NCBI GenBank assembly: GCA_025937835.1
Contig: JAICQO010000006.1
Location: 62,001-126,000 of the forward strand
DNA from: Polyangiaceae bacterium
Lineage (GTDB): Bacteria > Myxococcota_A > Polyangia > Polyangiales > Polyangiaceae
Reading direction: 5' to 3'
Length of the DNA: 64,000 bases
Below the pieces are notes generated by a model. It was given only the letters and a program-made list of their open reading frames with translations, ran no database searches and was not told where the DNA came from. Positions 6,211 to 64,000 of the stretch are shown piece after piece; position 1 is the first letter of the stretch; each line of letters begins with the position of its first letter. The position numbers and the translations under genes were made by a program.

Positions 6211-7185
6211 ATGGAATTCACGTACCTCGGCCGCACGGGCCTCAAGGTCAGCCGCTTTTGCCTGGGCACGATGAACTTCGGCCCCGAAACCAGCGAGCAG
6301 GATGCGTACGCGATCATGGATGCCGCGCTCGACCACGGCATCAACTTCTTCGACACGGCCAACGTCTACGGCTGGCAGATCGGCGAGGGCATCACCGAGA
6401 ACATCATCGGGCGCTGGCTCGCCCAGGGCGGCGGCCGCCGTGAGAAGGTGGTGCTCGCGACCAAGGTCTACGGCGAGATGGGCAAGTGGCCGAACCAGTC
6501 GCGGCTCTCGGCGCTGCACATCCGCGAGGCCTGCGAAGCCAGCCTGCGCCGGCTGAAGACCGATCACATCGACCTCTACCAGATGCACCACGTGGACCGC
6601 GCCACGCCCTGGGAAGAGCTCTTCATCGCGATGGAAACACTGATCCGCCAGGGCAAGGTGGTGTACATCGGCTCTTCGAACTTCGCGGGTTGGCACATCG
6701 CGCAAGCATCCGAGATCGCGAAGCAGCGCGGCATGCTCGGGCTCGTGTCCGAGCAGAGCAAGTACAACCTGCTCACGCGCAAGGTCGAGCTCGAGGTGCT
6801 GCCCGCGTGCGAGCGCTACGGCATCGGCGTGATCCCGTGGAGCCCCCTCGCCTCGGGCGTGCTCGCGCTCGGCGGCCGCACGGGCGGCGCGGGTGACAGC
6901 CGGCGCAACCGCGACCTGACCAAGCCGCTGCGCGAGGGCCACGCCGCGCAGCTCGAGCGCTACGGCGCCCTGTGCCAAAAGCTCGACGAAGAACCCGCCG
7001 ACGTCGCCATGGCCTGGCTGCTCAGTCGCCCCGCGGTCACGGCGCCGATCATCGGCCCCCGCACGATCGATCAGCTCACGAGCGGCCTCCGCGCCCTGGA
7101 GCTCGAGCTCAGCGACGAAACCAAGGCCGAGCTCGACGCGATCTTTCCGGGCTATAAAACCGCGCCGGAAGACTACGCCTGGTAG
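6211..7185 (+). CDS. Aldo/keto reductase
   Basis: A 324-aa NADPH-dependent oxidoreductase of the AKR superfamily (TIM barrel). The catalytic tetrad is visible: Asp48 and Tyr53 (FFDTANVYGW), Lys85 (VVLATKVYG) and His126 (LYQMHHVDR). Later motifs are typical of YajO/Kvbeta-like members: YIGSSNFAGWHIAQA, the QSKYNLL barrel strand, IPWSPLASGVLA, and the cofactor-binding VTAPIIGPRT. The ATG at 6211 was preferred over an upstream frame extension because MEFTYLGRTGLKVSRFCLGT is the conserved N-terminus. The substrate cannot be deduced. Confidence 0.93.
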   Translation: MEFTYLGRTGLKVSRFCLGTMNFGPETSEQDAYAIMDAALDHGINFFDTANVYGWQIGEGITENIIGRWLAQGGGRREKVVLATKVYGEMGKWPNQSRLSALHIREACEASLRRLKTDHIDLYQMHHVDRATPWEELFIAMETLIRQGKVVYIGSSNFAGWHIAQASEIAKQRGMLGLVSEQSKYNLLTRKVELEVLPACERYGIGVIPWSPLASGVLALGGRTGGAGDSRRNRDLTKPLREGHAAQLERYGALCQKLDEEPADVAMAWLLSRPAVTAPIIGPRTIDQLTSGLRALELELSDETKAELDAIFPGYKTAPEDYAW

Positions 7186-7204
7186 GTTCGAGGCCGGAGC
7201 TTCG

Positions 7205-7945
7205 ATGCGGCACGGGAATCGCTGGGCAATGTACGTCGGCTGGCTCGCGCTCGCCGCGTGTTCGAGGGCGGGCGATCCTCGAACCGGGACTTTGGGCTCG
7301 GCGACGGCCGTGGTCGCGAGGCCTGCGCCCGAACCTCCGTCGCCAGTGAGCGTCGCGTCGCCGCAGGCCGAACCGCCAGCGCCTGCCGCATCGGCTTCGT
7401 CGTCGGCCCCAGGCTGCGCCACACCGCGCGTGGTTCTGACGCGAGGCACACGACGCGACGAAGGCATCGCCGTCCTCGCCGAGCTGATCCGGGTATTCCC
7501 AGAACTCTCAGCATCGAGCTTCGAGGAACGCCTCCAGCCCGAACCCTGCGAGAGCACGCTCGAGGCGCGCTGCGCCGACGCGGCAGCTTGCACGCGGCTC
7601 GCGACTCTCTTCGAGCAAGTCGATCGGACCCAGCGACCGCGCTCCGTGTGTGAAGCCACGCTCGAGGGCGGCGCGAGCCAGCTCCAGGCGCCGAAGTCGC
7701 GACCCGGCGCGATGGCCGCCTGCGCGCGGATCCGTGCCTGTGAGCTCCTCGTGAGCGGGGCGCCGCTCATCGAGTGCGACGTGCTGCCGGAGCCCGGCGC
7801 GGAGTGCGCCCGGCACGCGACGTGCATCGAGGTCGCGCGCTGCGCCGAGCGCGCCCGCGCCGGACGGCCGTCCACGCCTCAGCCGCGTCTACCGCGCGCC
7901 CGCCCGCTCAACGACCCCTGCGCGGGACGCGGGCTCGGCTACTGA
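7205..7945 (+). CDS. Cys-rich lipoprotein of unknown function
   Basis: A 246-aa protein. Its N-terminus (MYVGWLALAACSRAGD) is a lipoprotein signal with lipobox AAC. A Pro/Ala-rich linker (residues about 40-75) follows. The Cys-rich domain has repeated Cys pairs (PEPCESTLEARCADAAAC and similar) that suggest several disulfides. It starts 19 bases after the aldo/keto reductase. It converges on the unknown operon end, with 3 bases between stops. No family recognised. Confidence 0.65.
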   Translation: MRHGNRWAMYVGWLALAACSRAGDPRTGTLGSATAVVARPAPEPPSPVSVASPQAEPPAPAASASSSAPGCATPRVVLTRGTRRDEGIAVLAELIRVFPELSASSFEERLQPEPCESTLEARCADAAACTRLATLFEQVDRTQRPRSVCEATLEGGASQLQAPKSRPGAMAACARIRACELLVSGAPLIECDVLPEPGAECARHATCIEVARCAERARAGRPSTPQPRLPRARPLNDPCAGRGLGY

Positions 7946-7948
7946 GCC

Positions 7949-9799
7949 TCACCAGTACCACTTCGGCTCGACCCGTTCGATGTCGCCGATCGGCTGCGGG
8001 ATCTCGTTCGGCGGCTCCGGGACGTCCCAGGACTCCCCGGGACCGACCTGCATGTTCACCATCGGAATACTGCGATCGGGGAGCTCGAAGTCCCCGCTCG
8101 GGCGGTCGCGGATCCGGAGCAGCGTCTGCCCCTGGGTGGTCACGAACAAGCCCATGTCCCGGGCCGGGTCGTCGCGCGTCATCAGCACCTTTTGCACGCG
8201 ACCGTCCAGGTAGTTGAACAACGCCACGAACTTCGGGAGCGCGCGCGGCAACACGTACAGGTGACCGGACAGCGGACCTTCGCTGCGCGGCACCGGGAAA
8301 GAGACGGCGCCGTTCTTGTTCTCCCGCCGCACGAGCAGGCCGCTCGGCAGCCGGAGCAGCTTGCCCCACTCCCACTCCTCGAAGATGGCGTGGCGCTCGG
8401 TACGATAGCCGAGCTCCGGCAGCACCTCCCCGAGCATCTTCGTGTAGCTCGCATAGCCGAGATCGTCGCGTTCGAACGTCGAGAACTCGCGCTCATAGTA
8501 CGAGATCACGCTGATGTTCTCGGTGTTCGGCCGGGCGAGGACGAGCATCGTCTGGTGGCTGATCCTGCCGGTTCCGCGCACCCTCCCGAAGTTCGCTTCG
8601 GCCCCGGGCGGTGCGCCGAACACCTCGCAGCCCAGGGTCTGCGCCGCGAGCCCGATATAGGTGGCGTGTCCGGCGCCGACGCCGTTGATGTCCGAACGGT
8701 TGAAGAATTTCGATTGCACGAACTGGCCGAAGGCGCGCTTCGTGTAGTCGAGCGTGGTGTGGACGTGACCGCCGCGCATCGGCGCCTTGTAGAAGACGTC
8801 CCGCGCGGTCCCGTCGTTGGCCTGCTTGTTGGCCGCGCGGCACTCGTTGATCACGTTCACCATGTGACTGCAGCCCGCGATGAAGAAGCGCCCGTCGGAG
8901 CGGAGCGCATCCTTGAGCTTCGGAAACTGTTTCGCGATCGCCCCCTCGGGGTGCCAGTCCTTGGGCCGTCCGTCGAAGTCCTTCGGATCGCGCGTCACGA
9001 GGTCCACGCCTTCGTCGCTGGTGTTCCGCACGACCGGCCCCGCGTGCCAGCCGTGTCCGAAGTAAGCGGCCTCGAGCACCGTGCCGGGTTCTTCGACGCC
9101 GAGCTGCTGCAGCACCCCGTAAAACTCCAGGATGCCGTTCTTCTGCCCCTCTCCTTGCGGCGTCAGCTCCGCCACCTTGACCCAGGACGTGACGGCCGGC
9201 TTCTGGCTCTTCACGAACACTTCGGTCACGTTCCGCCGCGTGCTGATCAGGTGAGCGTGTGAGCCGGGGTTCAGCTCGCCGCGCTCGAACAAGCGGTCGC
9301 GCCGCCCCTGAGAGAAGAGGTCGAAGGTGGCGTCGGTCTGCACGCAGGCGAGCGCCACGAAATGCACGGCCGGAAGCAGCTTGACCGTCAGCACGGATTG
9401 CTTGGGCCGGTCGGCGTCGACCTCTTCCTTCGCCTCCACGTAGTTTGCGATCGAGACCGTGGCCGCGGTCTGCCCGGCCCCGCCCGCGCCGCCCCAGCCA
9501 GCGGCGGCTCGGACCACGTCGTCTTTCGTGGAAAAGGTCAAGTGCTGGACGACCGTCGCCTTGTCCTTGGCGCGCACGACGAGCAACCACTCCCCGGTGT
9601 CCGGCTCGTTCTTCGGATCGCCCGAAATGTTGACGTAGTGCCCGCCGCTCTCGAAGTGCGTCTGCAGCAGATCCGCGTGAGGAAACCGCGAGTCTCCGAG
9701 CAGATCGCGCCGCCCGATCACTACCTGGGCGTCAGTCGAGGGCGTGAGCGCGCCGTCTGCGCCCACGTTCATCACCAGGATGCGTACCGGCGTCGCCAC
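7949..9799 (-). CDS. Unknown protein with clan-CD-protease-like His-Gly / Ala-Gly-Cys signature
   Basis: A 616-aa protein with no signal peptide, last gene of a six-gene operon. Hydrophobic strand, His-Gly (AAYFGHGWHAGP, His249) is followed 61 residues later by hydrophobic strand, Ala-Gly-Cys (GRFFIAGCSHM, Cys310). That is the general layout of the catalytic dyad of caspase/gingipain-type clan CD peptidases. The rest shows no repeats or membrane helices. The GTG at 9799 lies 4 bases after the upstream stop and was preferred over an overlapping upstream start. The peptidase idea is inference from two short motifs. The protein could equally be a non-enzymatic cargo or a different hydrolase. Confidence 0.6.
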   Translation of the reverse strand: MATPVRILVMNVGADGALTPSTDAQVVIGRRDLLGDSRFPHADLLQTHFESGGHYVNISGDPKNEPDTGEWLLVVRAKDKATVVQHLTFSTKDDVVRAAAGWGGAGGAGQTAATVSIANYVEAKEEVDADRPKQSVLTVKLLPAVHFVALACVQTDATFDLFSQGRRDRLFERGELNPGSHAHLISTRRNVTEVFVKSQKPAVTSWVKVAELTPQGEGQKNGILEFYGVLQQLGVEEPGTVLEAAYFGHGWHAGPVVRNTSDEGVDLVTRDPKDFDGRPKDWHPEGAIAKQFPKLKDALRSDGRFFIAGCSHMVNVINECRAANKQANDGTARDVFYKAPMRGGHVHTTLDYTKRAFGQFVQSKFFNRSDINGVGAGHATYIGLAAQTLGCEVFGAPPGAEANFGRVRGTGRISHQTMLVLARPNTENISVISYYEREFSTFERDDLGYASYTKMLGEVLPELGYRTERHAIFEEWEWGKLLRLPSGLLVRRENKNGAVSFPVPRSEGPLSGHLYVLPRALPKFVALFNYLDGRVQKVLMTRDDPARDMGLFVTTQGQTLLRIRDRPSGDFELPDRSIPMVNMQVGPGESWDVPEPPNEIPQPIGDIERVEPKWYW

Positions 9800-56039: not shown

Positions 56040-57059
56040 TCAGCGCGCCTTGCAGCGGTAGAGGCCGCCGCGGGCCTCGGGCGCGAGCGGCGTGTTCGGG
56101 TAGCGAGACAAGAGCTCGTTGAACGAGCGGCTCGCCTTCGCGCAGTCCCCGGCGCGCTCCGCCGAGAGCCCGCCCGAAAGCAGCTGATTTTCCTGCTCGA
56201 GGGTGCCGCTCGGCCGGGTGTCCTTCGCGCGGCGCTCGACGCGGCCCGCCGTGCGCCGGGGAGCCTTCGGTTCGACGACCTCGCGCTTGGGAGCAGGAAT
56301 CGCCTCGCTGACGGGCGCCGGGGTGGCGCGCGTCTCGCAGCCGAAGCTCTGCCCCGGGTCGAGCCCGACCGTGCCCTGGGCGTGGCGCACCGTTACGTGA
56401 CCCTCGGTGACGCTCACGCACGTGCCGTGGAGCGCGCCCGGCGGATTGGTGCGCACGCGGAATACGGTACCGTGCACGATCACCTCGGCATCGCGCGTCG
56501 TCACCGCAAAGCGCTCGCCCGGCCCGAGCGGCGGCACGCGACACTCGACCTCGCCGTCCAGCACGCGCAGCGTGTTCTGGCGGCTCTCGACGTCGAGCGC
56601 TCCGAGGTCCACGTCGGTGCGCCGCGACAGCTCGATGCGCACGCCGCGCGCGGTCGTGACGCGCACCGCGGACGTGTCACCGGAAGCAAGCACGCCGCGC
56701 GCCGGCAGCCGCGACGGGCCGTCGAGCGTGCGCGGCGTCGCTCCATCGTCCCGCCAGGTGAGCGAGGAGCTTCCGAGCGGCTCGATGCGCAGCGCGCCCC
56801 CGCCGAGCGGCGCCGCTTCGGGCGCGCGCAACGCGAGCACCAAGATCACCGGCAGCGCGCTCACGCCCAGAAGCCCCGAAACCTTCAGCGCCAGGCGCCG
56901 GCGGCGCGCCCGCTGCAACACGCCGGGCAAGGCGCGCACCTCGCCGCGCAGCCTCGGCAACAGCCGCTCGCGGGCATCACCGAGCTCCGCGGCCGTCGAC
57001 AGGGGCACTGGGCCGTCTCGCAACGGAGAGAGCGCGCGCTCGAGCTCCGAGTCCGACAT
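56040..57059 (-). CDS. FecR-like protein with C-terminal TPR-like segment
   Basis: A 339-aa single-pass membrane protein (helix near 58-78, VSGLLGVSALPVILVLALRA). The periplasmic domain has FecR features: VRIELSRRTDVDLGALDV, LRVLDGEVECRVPPLGPGER, VTTRDAEVIVHGTVFRVRT. A Pro-rich linker and a TPR-like end follow (ERAGDCAKASRSFNELLSRY). Its ATG overlaps the sigma factor's TGA by one base (TGATG), so it is coupled to that gene. It likely works as the cognate anti-sigma or sensor (inference from gene order). Confidence 0.85.
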   Translation of the reverse strand: MSDSELERALSPLRDGPVPLSTAAELGDARERLLPRLRGEVRALPGVLQRARRRRLALKVSGLLGVSALPVILVLALRAPEAAPLGGGALRIEPLGSSSLTWRDDGATPRTLDGPSRLPARGVLASGDTSAVRVTTARGVRIELSRRTDVDLGALDVESRQNTLRVLDGEVECRVPPLGPGERFAVTTRDAEVIVHGTVFRVRTNPPGALHGTCVSVTEGHVTVRHAQGTVGLDPGQSFGCETRATPAPVSEAIPAPKREVVEPKAPRRTAGRVERRAKDTRPSGTLEQENQLLSGGLSAERAGDCAKASRSFNELLSRYPNTPLAPEARGGLYRCKAR

Positions 57060-57655
57060 CAGCGCTTCTCCGCGGCGATACGCCGCAATAGGTCTTTGCG
57101 ACCGCGCACCAGCCGCGACTGAGCGGCGGCCACGCTGACGCCCGTCAGCTCCGCGACCTCGGCCAGATCGTGTCCGAGCACGTCGTGCAAGAGCACCGTC
57201 TCGGAATACTTCGATTTCATCTTCGCGACGACTCTCTGAACGCGAAGCAGGTCGGAGCGCGCCTCGACGCGCCGGTCGAGGCCCGGCTCATGAACGTCGA
57301 TCTCGTCCGGCAGGGCCTGGAACAGCCGGCCCTCACGCCCGCGCCGCCGCAGTGCATCGAGTCCCACCCGCAGCGCCACGACGCTGGCCCACGCAGGCAG
57401 GTCATAGGTGATGGTCAGTGAACGCTCGGTGAGCACGCGCAGAATGCGCTCGAACACCGACTGCACCAGATCGTCGTGCTCGGCGCCGAGCGTGCGCAAC
57501 AGCCGCCGCAGCGTGCGATCGACGGGCTGGGCGATCCGCTCGTACAGCGCCTCCGCGGCCCAGTCCTCGCCACGGGCGAGCGCCGCCACCACCTCGACGT
57601 CGGGCGCCTCCCCGCGGGGTGGCAAGCTGCTCGCCTTGCGTCCGGGGGATTTCAT
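57059..57655 (-). CDS. ECF-type RNA polymerase sigma factor
   Basis: A 198-aa sigma-70 family protein. Region 2 is visible as EALYERIAQPVDRTLRRLLR, LGAEHDDLVQSVFERILRVL. Region 4 is ETVLLHDVLGHDLAEVAELT, GVSVAAAQSRLVRGRKDLLR, a normal HTH. There is no region 1 or 3. It is coupled to the FecR-like gene by a TGATG overlap. Sigma/FecR pairs commonly respond to envelope or transport signals. The ATG at 57655 was chosen; the longer frame upstream has no sigma similarity. Confidence 0.88.
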   Translation of the reverse strand: MKSPGRKASSLPPRGEAPDVEVVAALARGEDWAAEALYERIAQPVDRTLRRLLRTLGAEHDDLVQSVFERILRVLTERSLTITYDLPAWASVVALRVGLDALRRRGREGRLFQALPDEIDVHEPGLDRRVEARSDLLRVQRVVAKMKSKYSETVLLHDVLGHDLAEVAELTGVSVAAAQSRLVRGRKDLLRRIAAEKR

Positions 57656-57823
57656 CTGGCTGAAATTGTGCGGCACCCGAGCCAATCCTCGTGTCTGACC
57701 GAGATCGACGAACCTGGCACGTCGGATCAGGCAAGGGATACGGGCGGCGCGCAAACGCGAATCGTTCCGGGAGCTTCCGTGCATTGATGGGGGCGCGGAA
57801 ATGAGGGATAGATCCGGCGCCTC

Positions 57824-58540
57824 GTGAGCCGCTCCCCCCTGGTCGCCGTGTTTTTGTCGCTCGCGGCCGCCGGCTGCGCCGAGGATCTCACGATCAGCGC
57901 TGCCGACCACGGGCGCGATCTCTACAACTCCAAGGCGCTCTCGAGCTCGAGTCTCAACAACTACACCTGCGCCAACTGCCACACGCTCGAGCGCAGCGAC
58001 GGCGGCTTGCGCTACACCGGCGGACCTCTGGCGGGCTCGACGCTTCGCTCGTCTCTGTGGGGCGGGCAAGAGAACGATCTCCTGCGCTCGATCAACGCCT
58101 GCCGCTCGTACTTCATGGTCGCGCCAGAGCCGCTGAAGGCCGACGACCCCGACGCCGAGGCGCTGTATGCGTTCCTGAAGAGCCTCGAACCAGGCGAGCC
58201 CGAGCCGATCCCGTTCACGGTCGTGCGCATGATCGAGCCGATCGCGCGCGGCGACGCGACCGCCGGCGCGCTCGGTTACACGAGCACCTGCGGCTACTGC
58301 CACGGCACCATGCACGAGGGGCTCGGCCGTTTGAGCGAACGCGTGCCGATCTTGCCGGAAGACACGATCGAAGAGCACATCAACTACACACCGCGCGATC
58401 TACGGTTGGTGTTCATCGAAAAGGTGCGCCACGGCCTGTTCTACGGCTATGGCGGCGACATGCCGCCGTTTTCGACCGAGGTCCTGAGCGACGCGGAGCT
58501 CGCGGACATCCTCGAAGCGTTGGGCATATACGGCGAGTAG
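57824..58540 (+). CDS. Diheme cytochrome c lipoprotein
   Basis: A 238-aa lipoprotein (LVAVFLSLAAAGCAED, lipobox AAGC) with two c-type haem sites: YTCANCHTLE (about residue 50) and STCGYCHGTM (about 157). Each lies in a cytochrome c-like domain, with likely Met ligands further on (SYFMVAP, DMPPFS). It would carry electrons at the periplasmic or outer face. The GTG at 57824 gives a proper lipoprotein signal. It is the first of three same-strand exported proteins. Confidence 0.85.
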   Translation: MSRSPLVAVFLSLAAAGCAEDLTISAADHGRDLYNSKALSSSSLNNYTCANCHTLERSDGGLRYTGGPLAGSTLRSSLWGGQENDLLRSINACRSYFMVAPEPLKADDPDAEALYAFLKSLEPGEPEPIPFTVVRMIEPIARGDATAGALGYTSTCGYCHGTMHEGLGRLSERVPILPEDTIEEHINYTPRDLRLVFIEKVRHGLFYGYGGDMPPFSTEVLSDAELADILEALGIYGE

Positions 58541-60585: not shown

Positions 60586-61761
60586 GTGAATCGCTCCGCG
60601 CTGCTCTTGCTGTCACTCGGACTTTGCGCGTGCTCCGGCGGGGAGCGGACCATCGCAGACTACGATGGCGAGCCGGCCTATCCGAGCCAGCGCGGTTCGT
60701 ACCGAGTGGATGGCCGTCTGCTGGGCTTCGTCGCGAACCGCATGTCCGACACGATCAGCGTGGTGGACCTCGACTCGATGACGCTGCTCGGCAGCGAGCC
60801 GATCGGCCGTGACCCGGTCGACGTCGACGGCCCGCGCCACGTGCTGCTCGATGCCGGTCGCCGCATCGGCTACGTGGCGCTCTCGTATCCGCTCGCGGTG
60901 CAGAGCGTCCACGTCGCGGTCGAGACCGGCGTCGTCGTCAAATCCGGCTATGTTCAGGCCTTTTCGCTCGACGATCTGCGCCCGCTCGGAGAACAGCGCG
61001 TCGAGGCGTCTCCGTCCGAGCTCGCGCTCTCCAGCGACGGCGCCCTGCTCGCCGTTTCCCACTACGACACGCTGCGCTCCATCTCCAATAAAGAGCTCGA
61101 TAAGCGCCGCGCCAGCCTGGCCTTGATCGATCCCGCCGGGAGCGTCACCAGCAGCGGCGCCACGCTCAGACTGGTGCCGCTCTGCGTCGTCCCGGCGGCG
61201 ATCGTGCTCTCCGCGGACAAGACGCGAGCCTTCGTCGCTTGCACCGGTGAGGACTCGATCGCCGTCGTCGACACCGTCGCTGGCGCCGTGCTCGGCTCCG
61301 TCAAGGCCGGCGAGCTCAACGTCAACAAACCCTACGCCATGGTCGCCGACCCGACGGGGACACGGCTGGCCGTTTCGAACCAGGTGGCGGGCACCGTCGT
61401 GTTGTTCTCCGCCACCGACGCGCCAGCGCTGCTCTCCACCACTCGCGTGAACCTGGGCGTGCCGTACTTCGTCGGCTGGCTGTCGAACGACGTGCTGGCA
61501 GCGCCGATCCAGGAGCCGAGCAGCGTGGCGTTGATCGACGCCGCCACGGGCACGCTCACGAAAGAGGTCGCGTACGCCGACAGCGACTGCCTGAACCCCA
61601 GTGAAATTCAACGCACCGCGGGCGGCCGCGTGTTCATGGTCTGTGAAGGCAACCACTTCGCGCCCGGCGCGATCGTCGAGCTCGACCCCGAGAGCCTGGC
61701 GGTGACCGCGCGCGTCGAGGTCGAGCTGTGGCCGGACCGGCTGGCGATCCTCGAGCCCTAG
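60586..61761 (+). CDS. YVTN-type beta-propeller lipoprotein
   Basis: A 391-aa lipoprotein (ALLLLSLGLCACSGGE, lipobox LCAC). Propeller blades carry the YVTN-like pattern: VANRMSDTISVVDLDSMTLL, LALSSDGALLAVSHYDTL, AFVACTGEDSIAVVDTVAGA, GTRLAVSNQVAGTVVLFSAT. The GTG start lies 37 bases after the Ig/propeller gene, so the two are probably cotranscribed. A strong hairpin follows the stop. Binding partner unknown. Confidence 0.85.
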   Translation: MNRSALLLLSLGLCACSGGERTIADYDGEPAYPSQRGSYRVDGRLLGFVANRMSDTISVVDLDSMTLLGSEPIGRDPVDVDGPRHVLLDAGRRIGYVALSYPLAVQSVHVAVETGVVVKSGYVQAFSLDDLRPLGEQRVEASPSELALSSDGALLAVSHYDTLRSISNKELDKRRASLALIDPAGSVTSSGATLRLVPLCVVPAAIVLSADKTRAFVACTGEDSIAVVDTVAGAVLGSVKAGELNVNKPYAMVADPTGTRLAVSNQVAGTVVLFSATDAPALLSTTRVNLGVPYFVGWLSNDVLAAPIQEPSSVALIDAATGTLTKEVAYADSDCLNPSEIQRTAGGRVFMVCEGNHFAPGAIVELDPESLAVTARVEVELWPDRLAILEP

Positions 61762-61770
61762 CCACAAGCA

Positions 61771-61798
61771 CGAACGCCCGCGTTGAAGCGGGCGTTCG
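61771..61798. terminator. Bidirectional hairpin terminator
   Basis: A perfect 11-bp stem (cgaacgcccgc / gcgggcgttcg, 6-base loop) lies between the stops of two convergent genes, 10 bases after the propeller gene. Only weak T content follows on the minus strand (TGCTTGTGG). Confidence 0.7.
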
Positions 61799-61818
61799 GC
61801 GCAATCAAGAGCTGGAGC

Positions 61819-63465
61819 TCACTGCGGCGCGGGAGCGCCGTCCATGATCCACTTCTCGAGGTCGGCTATCTCTTGCGCGGTCAGGGTCACGCTCGAAGCG
61901 CCCTGGGGCATCAACAGGTTGTTGCACTGAATTCCGCCGGTCGGGGTGCAGCCGGCTTGCGCGGCCTTGTTCGTGACCTTGAGGTACAGCCAGCTCTTCA
62001 TCGGGTCCCCAGGCTCGATCAGCTTGAACTGACCGCCGTTGGTGGACGGCTTCTTCAGCGCCGCCACGATGTCCGACGACTTCACGCATTCGCTGCCGCC
62101 GAGGGTGAGGTTCGCGTTGGCGCCGTCCTTACCGTGACAGCCGGTGCACTTGTTGGTCGCGCTCTCGAAGATCGGCCGGATCTTCTCGACGAAGAAGCCC
62201 GTCTGCACCGGAGCCGGCGTGCACTCCGTCCCCGGCTTCCCCAGGCTCGGGTCGACCAGCAACGCCAGGTCGTCCATGTGCCGGCATTGCTTGAGCACAG
62301 CTTCCCGGATGTCCGGATCGTTCGGCGTCTGGCCCTTGGCGGCACGGTACTTGTCCCAGACCTTGTCGATCCAGCCGTGCATCTTCCAGAACATGTAGTT
62401 GTCGATGTTCGTGAACTGATTGCCGAGGCCGTGCTCGCTGTTCTGCGGGCGCACCCACTTGAAGTGCAGCGCGCCGTGCAGGCCGCTCGTGGTCTGGATC
62501 CACTGCCCGAAAGCGCCCTCGCTCTCGAAGCCCTTCTCGCTCATGTGCATGCCCGGGTTGTCGGCCTTGGCGCCGTTCGCGATCGTGTTGGCGTCGAACG
62601 CACGCCAGTCGGCCTGCCACGCCGCCGGGATCTGCGCCTTGTCGGTCGGGAACGTGTCCCAGCCCTCGAACTGCTCCGTGTGCTTGGGGAACAGCTGCTT
62701 CAGCGACTCGATCATGTGGCGGTGCATGGCCAGGAACTCGAGGCCGTCACCCGGCCCCTTGCCTTCCTGGTTCTGCGGCACGAGCTCGGTGTGCTTGCAC
62801 GGGTCGAGGCCGCCCGCGCGCGTGCGATCGACCATGCCGCCGTTGCAGCGGCGGATGTTGTGCCACTGGAAGTGCGCTTCCTGCCAGACCTGGCTGTTCA
62901 TCCAGTCGATGACCTCGGGCTGCACGAGCGTGTCGACCTGGCCGGACTTGGTGTACTCCGAGTAGCCGTCCTTCATCGTCGCGTCGACCGCGAGCGGGGC
63001 GTAGCCCTCGACGCAGTGATCGCGGACGTGGGACGCGCCGCCCGTGGCAGCGCCGCCGCTGCCGCCCGAGGTGCCGCCACCGCCGATTGCCGGCGCACCA
63101 CCCGCAGGGGTGACAGCGCCGCCGCTACCGCCGAGCGGGGGCACGGGCGGCGAACCGCCGAACGTGGCCGTGCCGCCGGTGGGACCCGCAACGGTGCCAC
63201 CCGTGGGGGTGACGACCGGCGCGCCGCCGGAGCCGCCTCCGCCGCTGGGCTTCACTCCGCCGGTGCTCGAGCTGGGCGAGCCGCCCATGCCGCCCGCCGG
63301 GCCCGCGCCGCCCACGGGTTGCATCGGACCAGGCGTATCCGAGGGGGACTCGCCGCTGCATCCGAGCAGGAGGATCCAGGTCGAGGTGGCGACCACTAGG
63401 CGGCGCCGCTGCGAGCCGAGGCCGCGGAGGAGAGTGGGTGAGCTTGCGCGATCGGCGGACAACAT
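61819..63465 (-). CDS. Lipoprotein fusing a tyrosinase-like copper domain to a cytochrome c domain
   Basis: A 548-aa lipoprotein (STWILLLGCSGES, Cys36). Residues 50-145 are a Gly/Thr/Pro linker. The middle domain has tyrosinase-like elements: AHFQWHN (198, 202), FLAMHRHMIESL (248, 250; compare FLPWHRxxL), LHGALH (330, 334; the CuB HxxxH) and FWKMHGWIDKVWDKY (363; compare FWLHHAxIDRLW). The C-terminal domain has a c-type haem site NKCTGCHGKDG (440-444). The gene starts with AGGAGG about 11 bases before the ATG. A coupled copper/haem redox role at the cell surface is inference. Confidence 0.72.
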   Translation of the reverse strand: MLSADRASSPTLLRGLGSQRRRLVVATSTWILLLGCSGESPSDTPGPMQPVGGAGPAGGMGGSPSSSTGGVKPSGGGGSGGAPVVTPTGGTVAGPTGGTATFGGSPPVPPLGGSGGAVTPAGGAPAIGGGGTSGGSGGAATGGASHVRDHCVEGYAPLAVDATMKDGYSEYTKSGQVDTLVQPEVIDWMNSQVWQEAHFQWHNIRRCNGGMVDRTRAGGLDPCKHTELVPQNQEGKGPGDGLEFLAMHRHMIESLKQLFPKHTEQFEGWDTFPTDKAQIPAAWQADWRAFDANTIANGAKADNPGMHMSEKGFESEGAFGQWIQTTSGLHGALHFKWVRPQNSEHGLGNQFTNIDNYMFWKMHGWIDKVWDKYRAAKGQTPNDPDIREAVLKQCRHMDDLALLVDPSLGKPGTECTPAPVQTGFFVEKIRPIFESATNKCTGCHGKDGANANLTLGGSECVKSSDIVAALKKPSTNGGQFKLIEPGDPMKSWLYLKVTNKAAQAGCTPTGGIQCNNLLMPQGASSVTLTAQEIADLEKWIMDGAPAPQ

Positions 63466-63646
63466 CAGGGAAAAGCCTCCTGGGGACTAGGTGTACCGTA
63501 CCCAGTGGGGCCCACCGCCACTCACAAAAAGGTAGTTTGCTTACGGTTCTCGAACCCTCAAATAAAAGCGGCCGCCCGGACCGAACTCTGCAAATTCACG
63601 GGGTTTGACGCTAATGGCCAAACCCCGTCGCCCTATGGCTCTCGAA

Positions 63647-64000
63647 TCAGCGCACCACGGCGCTGAACTCGGTGAGCTCCAGCCCGTTGGCCGCGCTGCC
63701 GGTCCAGATCTCGAAGCCCGCGAAGACGTCCGTAAGCAGCCAGTTCGACTTGAGGCCGTGGTTGTTCGCGATTGAATCGTCGATGAACTTCTTCAGGTCG
63801 AACGTAAGGCTCGTGACTGCGGAAGTTGCGACGTACGAGATAACGGGTGCGTTCCGGTTGGTCCCGCTGCCGCTGCGAGGGCCGACATACACGTCCCAGG
63901 TCCCGGTGACCCCGGCCACCGTGACGCCGTTGCGCGTCGGAGTTCCACCGATGGGCGTGTTCCCGCCCGGCTTGTAGAGCCAGACCATGAGGAAGCCGGA
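63647..64000 (-). CDS. Glycoside hydrolase family 12 endoglucanase, C-terminal part (window edge)
   Basis: The frame is open to the window end, so the N-terminus is missing. About 117 residues are visible. MVWLYKPGGNTPIGG matches the GH12 strand carrying the catalytic nucleophile region. WDVYVGPRSGSGTNRNAPV, ISYVATSAVTSLTFDLKKFI, and SNWLLTDVFAGFEIWTG-type strands follow to the C-terminus. GH12 enzymes cleave beta-1,4-glucans or xyloglucan and are secreted. The catalytic acid near DVFAGFEIW (Glu) is visible; the nucleophile lies near or beyond the edge. Confidence 0.85.
   Translation of the reverse strand, partial: SGFLMVWLYKPGGNTPIGGTPTRNGVTVAGVTGTWDVYVGPRSGSGTNRNAPVISYVATSAVTSLTFDLKKFIDDSIANNHGLKSNWLLTDVFAGFEIWTGSAANGLELTEFSAVVR

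Follow-up and report, generated by a model that had tools for sequence, protein, structure and literature searches.

What would a bacterium do with a type-3 copper enzyme that carries a haem on the same chain? Known type-3 copper enzymes draw electrons from the phenolic substrate itself. With a haem covalently attached, the chemistry would run differently, and the formation of quinones could be avoided. The question is raised by a gene near the end of a stretch of 64,000 nucleotides (the window) from a Polyangiaceae bacterium, for which a preliminary description had proposed a tyrosinase-like copper domain fused to cytochrome c in a lipoprotein. The open reading frame was found exactly as described, with CuA- and CuB-like elements ahead of CxxCH on a single chain, and its features are collected in Table 1 together with those of its surroundings. 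The lipoprotein claim is supported by an LLGC36 lipobox, the Cys36 of which is invariant in 18 fused Polyangiaceae relatives. The Gly-rich linker was recovered at about residues 37–145; the Cellvibrionaceae relatives have a poly-Ser linker in its place. The proposed joining of copper and haem domains was borne out as a covalent fusion, and the product is almost certainly a surface-anchored enzyme with both copper and haem. The sole Pfam match of the fusion reading frame was a sub-threshold cytochrome c. A reading frame of 538 aa with a TTG start runs antisense to the gene (window 61783–63399, plus strand); it resembles a GC-rich shadow frame rather than a gene.

Table 1. Features of the fusion gene and its surroundings; positions are those of the window in plus-strand numbering, residues those of the fusion protein
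Feature	Position	Strand	Remarks
Whole fusion gene	61819..63465	-	Lipoprotein, 548 aa, ATG start; PvdP-like type-3 copper domain and c-type cytochrome
Signal peptide, residues 1-35, with lipobox LLG-Cys36	63358..63465	-	Sequence
Linker, residues 37-145, low-complexity Gly/Ser/Thr/Pro	63031..63357	-	Sequence; ~110 residues
Type-3 copper domain, residues 146-416	62218..63030	-	Profile against PvdP; model and structural neighbours
CuA HxxxH, His198 and His202 (AHFQWH)	62860..62874	-	Invariant; paired with PvdP HQLWH
CuA third ligand, His248 (in MHRHM)	62722..62724	-	Invariant; paired with PvdP MHR
CuB HxxxH, His330 and His334 (LHGALH); HisB1+1 is Gly331	62464..62478	-	Paired with PvdP MHDWLH
CuB third ligand, His363 (FWKMHGWID)	62377..62379	-	Invariant; paired with PvdP HGWID
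FoxE-like c-type cytochrome domain, residues 419-548	61822..62211	-	Alignment and separate fold prediction
Haem c attachment motif C440-T-G-C-H444	62134..62148	-	Invariant
Met519, predicted distal haem ligand (Met-Pro)	61909..61911	-	M519-P520 invariant
YncE/lactonase-like beta-propeller lipoprotein, convergent neighbour	60586..61761	+	Also beside the type-3 copper genes of L059 (fused), L046 and L048 (both unfused)
Di-haem c-type cytochrome lipoprotein	57824..58540	+	Paired with the propeller here and at 20 further Polyangiaceae loci
GH12 lipoprotein, C-terminal part, upstream neighbour	63647..64000	-	Runs past the window end; full gene L066 11650-13482
11-bp perfect inverted repeat	61771..61798		Between the convergent propeller and fusion genes
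10-bp perfect inverted repeat	63598..63628		Between the GH12 and fusion genes

The first issue is whether the copper site is complete. The preliminary description had listed FLAMHRHMIESL, which spans residues 244–255, and FWKMHGWIDKVW, which contains H363, and had overlooked AHFQWH (H198, H202), the first half of the CuA site, which completes CuA. It had also staked the copper assignment on at least five conserved His residues, and six of six proved invariant, with or without the fusion: when 7 fused and 9 unfused homologues were aligned, the His columns that showed no variation were exactly six (198, 202, 248, 330, 334, and 363), and they are still invariant in a set of 14 homologues that includes a PvdP-like outlier. 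A profile of the homologue alignment matched structures of PvdP, the pyoverdine maturation tyrosinase of Pseudomonas, with an E-value of 2e-18, and HQLWH, MHR, MHDWLH, and HGWID of PvdP paired with the six His residues. The same profile reached insect phenoloxidase, haemocyanin, and plant polyphenol oxidase with weaker E-values (1e-3 for PPO2). The window protein by itself found PvdP in a PDB search (E=3e-4) and, weakly but significantly, in NCBIfam (E=2e-6), where its 26.3 bits did not reach the 625-bit cut-off of the PvdP equivalog NF051454. No segment of the window protein aligned with the N-terminal region of PvdP (before residue ~189), the N-terminal part of the window protein being low-complexity linker. 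A chance motif match is ruled out by the six invariant His residues and the pairing of the profile with PvdP. A canonical Pfam tyrosinase identity is also ruled out, as none of 14 family members matched a Pfam tyrosinase or haemocyanin model at E≤0.1; the relative is PvdP-like.

Structure prediction, which had been suggested as a check on whether the His residues converge, pointed in the same direction. An AlphaFold2 run on residues 145–548 with 16 homologues gave a model with a pLDDT of 84.5 and a pTM of 0.66, in which the placement of the domains is uncertain. Foldseek returned no significant match for the whole model, and relatives emerged only with VIA-align. The predicted fold superposes on PvdP (Z 13.1–13.7 over ~208–214 residues), and the matched stretch, model range 30–267, includes all six His residues. 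The next neighbours were haemocyanin, prophenoloxidases, and tyrosinases (Z 7–12), and ranks 1–17 were all type-3 copper proteins; the model shows the tyrosinase/haemocyanin helical-bundle fold. For the C-terminal part of the two-domain model, hydrazine synthase and FoxE were found. Nearly all other fused proteins have a Cys pair at aligned positions 235 and 325. The window protein is without either member, and this correlated loss probably represents the loss of one disulfide.

The second issue is the nature of the haem domain. Scored alone, it fell just under the Pfam Cytochrom_C/CBB3 gathering threshold (20.9 versus 21.3 bits). Folded alone, it gave a pLDDT of 83.2 and a pTM of 0.80, with FoxE as the best structural neighbour (Z 8.7), followed by hydrazine synthase (Z 7.3); the remaining matches were weak (Z 2.0–2.3) and all haem c domains, including a Teredinibacter cytochrome domain. 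CxxCH is invariant in 18 of 18 fused Polyangiaceae proteins, and an alignment of 17 fused cytochrome domains alone kept this motif, Met519-Pro520, and a Cys pair (506, 514) without exception. The hemes of FoxE carry a distal Met (PMC10654088), and by analogy Met519 is the probable distal haem ligand.

How widely is the fusion distributed? A scan of 84,980 species genomes yielded 16 fused loci, hosted by Sorangium cellulosum strains, three related Polyangiaceae/deltaproteobacterial MAGs, Marinagarivorans sp., and Saccharophagus sp. K07; in that scan the fused loci were confined to Sorangium, related Polyangiaceae, and two Cellvibrionaceae. A search of 144 Cellvibrionaceae genomes added a third carrier from that family, G509. 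The survey of other Myxococcota that the preliminary description had called for found fused genes in 9 of 108 Polyangiaceae genomes, two per carrier, with unfused versions in other genomes, and a phylum-wide search found only one further relative, unfused, in another family. The second fused paralogue in the window's own genome shares 45% identity with the first. Since the 21 fused proteins form a single clade (support 100/100), the fusion probably arose in a single event, with duplication and transfer from one phylum to another coming later.

The fused paralogues also differ at the position next to the first CuB His (HisB1+1). Each of the nine Polyangiaceae carriers (L041–L045, L052–L062, L013, and the window) keeps exactly one Gly-type and one Phe-type paralogue, and the Phe-type paralogues are monophyletic (support 100/99). 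Fused proteins have Gly or Phe at this position, with Ile in one; it is Asn or Ala in unfused relatives and Asp in PvdP. Asn is common here in tyrosinases. A residue other than Asn could mean that the fused proteins act as diphenolases only. The HisB1+1 residue has been found to modulate, and not to decide, mono- versus diphenolase activity (PMC8049008).

The genes that accompany the fusion gene bear on its substrate. An exported intradiol ring-cleavage dioxygenase gene adjoins it in 5 of the 12 carrier genomes, which represent few lineages and not 12 independent events of co-occurrence. In Marinagarivorans, Saccharophagus, and G509 (L082, L083, and L117), a PF00775 dioxygenase gene with an Arg-Arg signal peptide lies directly upstream of the fusion gene. 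In G072 and G076, congeners of the window genome, the immediate downstream neighbour of the Phe-type fusion is the dioxygenase gene, which is also the immediate upstream neighbour of the Gly-type fusion. The order there is apparently fusion–dioxygenase–fusion, split over two contigs that break inside the dioxygenase gene: one G072 contig ends with the beginning of this gene, and a G076 contig opens with its final residues. This adjacency in two phyla is independent support for a linkage between the two enzymes. Furthermore, close homologues of the G072/G076 dioxygenase (61–100% identity) are present in exactly the 9 fusion-bearing genomes of the 108 Polyangiaceae and in none of the other 99. 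The next matches are far weaker; because the nine carriers are related, this co-occurrence does not count as nine independent events. Within the window's genus, three of eight genomes have both the fusion and the dioxygenase and five have neither. The partner dioxygenases match PF00775, keep the Fe ligands Tyr, Tyr, His, and His, and carry Tat-lipoprotein-like signals. The window's genome has two tandem dioxygenase genes, on a contig other than that of the fusion gene. In the second of these (L110:2835–3899, contig C123), PGWM...HVE replaces PGWY...HIH with the loss of Tyr and His ligands, and this copy is possibly inactive or regulatory.

Other neighbours were considered as well. The propeller and di-haem cytochrome genes adjoin a type-3 copper gene in four loci: near the fusion gene in the window and L059 and, in an operon-like arrangement, with the unfused genes of L046 and L048. 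At 20 other Polyangiaceae loci (L143–L162) the pair is present without a type-3 copper gene in the stretches examined. It is therefore a general module, and the idea of a dedicated partner is weakened. The di-haem cytochrome was found in 33 of 108 Polyangiaceae genomes, mostly without a copper gene nearby. Multi-haem cytochrome genes lie next to unfused relatives at L049 and L063, and the presence of separate cytochrome c genes beside some unfused relatives (L049, L063, L046, and L048) suggests a redox partnership.

Genes linked to the plant cell wall are found nearby at several loci: GH12 (window), GH88 (L054), rhamnogalacturonan lyase (L058), and CBM9 (L117). These neighbours vary by locus and hairpins flank the window gene, so the cell-wall context is suggestive only; the repeat between the GH12 and fusion genes suggests that they are separate transcripts. 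No conserved synteny of the fusion gene was seen within Sorangium, and Rfam and sigma-70 scans of the window-gene region gave no matches. In one Sorangium genome, a fungal-type glucuronoyl esterase homologue is encoded just upstream of two tandem dioxygenases (L119:5111–6127 and 6460–8925). In the Cellvibrionaceae locus L117, an exported protein with an FGE-sulfatase (formylglycine-generating enzyme-like) domain is encoded directly downstream of the fusion gene (6825–8246), and on the minus strand of the window (56040–57736) an ECF-type sigma factor and a FecR-domain protein are adjacent.

We propose, with about an even chance of being right, that the fusion protein works as a surface phenol/catechol oxygenase upstream of ring cleavage, with electron exchange between its copper site and the cytochrome. 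The copper site would activate O2 and oxygenate or oxidise phenols, perhaps of plant origin, at the cell surface. The haem would exchange electrons with the copper site, most likely as a supply of reductant, and the net product would stay at catechol rather than proceeding to quinone. The Tat-exported intradiol dioxygenase would then open the catechol ring. In a conventional tyrosinase, the reducing equivalents come from catechol and quinone is released. Electron supply by the haem, which would make the copper domain a net phenol hydroxylase, would account both for a dioxygenase partner that needs catechol and for a covalently attached haem. The parts of this proposal differ in strength. That the fusion enzyme acts on phenolics or catechols jointly with the dioxygenase is probable, while the direction of electron flow from haem to copper falls somewhat short of an even bet. 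More tentative still is the full scheme, in which a cytochrome-fed type-3 copper oxygenase halts at catechol for the surface dioxygenase, and the Gly/Phe-type pair of the Polyangiaceae serves extracellular ring opening of plant phenolics.

The main rival to the haem-to-copper reading is the reverse wiring, a catechol or phenol dehydrogenase in which copper oxidises diphenols and electrons leave via the fused haem to the cytochrome network, O2 playing little or no part. Gly or Phe at HisB1+1, as in some catechol oxidases, fits such an enzyme, and so do the di-haem cytochrome and propeller close by and the likeness of the haem domain to FoxE, an electron-extracting cytochrome. However, the reverse wiring would give quinones, which an intradiol dioxygenase cannot use, and the dioxygenase linkage would be harder to explain; in addition, the reaction of type-3 copper sites with O2 is normally fast. 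We consider the reverse wiring unlikely.

A lower probability still attaches to an ordinary O2-dependent tyrosinase or catechol oxidase whose cytochrome serves only as a lid, a structural tail, or a docking module. C-terminal domains have such a role in many latent tyrosinases, and the C-terminal position of the cytochrome, the flexible linker, and the existence of unfused relatives are consistent with it, but neither CxxCH nor Met-Pro varies among the aligned fused proteins of two phyla, and the separate cytochrome c genes beside some unfused relatives also argue against it. A role in cellulose degradation, relaying electrons or providing H2O2 to lytic polysaccharide monooxygenases, is very improbable: the Sorangium and Saccharophagus hosts are cellulolytic and all three Cellvibrionaceae carriers encode AA10 enzymes and have poly-Ser linkers, but 8 of 9 Polyangiaceae carriers have no AA10 and the window genome has only a marginal one, and this partnership was dropped as a general role because a function for which most carriers lack AA10 is not a shared one. 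Hardly any weight can be given to siderophore or peptide-pigment maturation, the job of PvdP, for although PvdP is the closest solved relative, the family score is far from its cut-off (26 versus 625 bits), the structural match is confined to PvdP residues 189–506, and no NRPS-like neighbour was noticed in the loci examined.

The constant co-occurrence with an exported ring-cleaving dioxygenase offers cellulose-degrading bacteria as a setting in which an extracellular pathway for aromatics can be put to the test, with relevance for lignin and tannin turnover and for the production of catechol without over-oxidation.

Four known systems come closest to the fusion protein and its partner. First, PvdP (PDB 6eys, 6eyv, 6rrp, 6rrq, and 6rrr) has the same type-3 copper fold, and its HxxWH, MHR, HxxxH, and HGWID motifs align with all six His residues of the window protein. 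However, identity is only ~20%, the match begins at PvdP residue 189, and PvdP has no haem, whereas the window side adds a lipoprotein anchor, a C-terminal cytochrome c, and dioxygenase partners. Second, arthropod haemocyanin and prophenoloxidase (3ixv and 3hhs) are the second-closest folds (Z 11.3–11.7) but are without a cytochrome and have other N- and C-terminal domains. Third, the Fe(II)-oxidising cytochrome FoxE (5mab) is the closest fold of the C-terminal domain, and both have CxxCH with a later Met ligand, a predicted one in the window protein; FoxE differs in having two haems and no copper domain. Fourth, Streptomyces SirexAA-E has, according to accounts that cite the original work, a secreted intradiol dioxygenase with a lignin-binding module (Bianchetti 2013, cited in PMC9167512 and PMC8312274). 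As described there, it resembles the partner enzymes in being an exported PF00775 enzyme of a cellulose degrader; these citing accounts mention no type-3 copper or cytochrome partner for it, and the dioxygenases here bear Tat-lipoprotein-like signals. No tyrosinase–cytochrome c fusion was described in the open-access literature searched, outside which most subscription journals lie, and wetland tyrosinase papers leave cytochrome fusions unmentioned. Type-3 copper domains and cytochromes c are each known singly; what appears new, judged by that literature, is their combination and its tie to ring cleavage.
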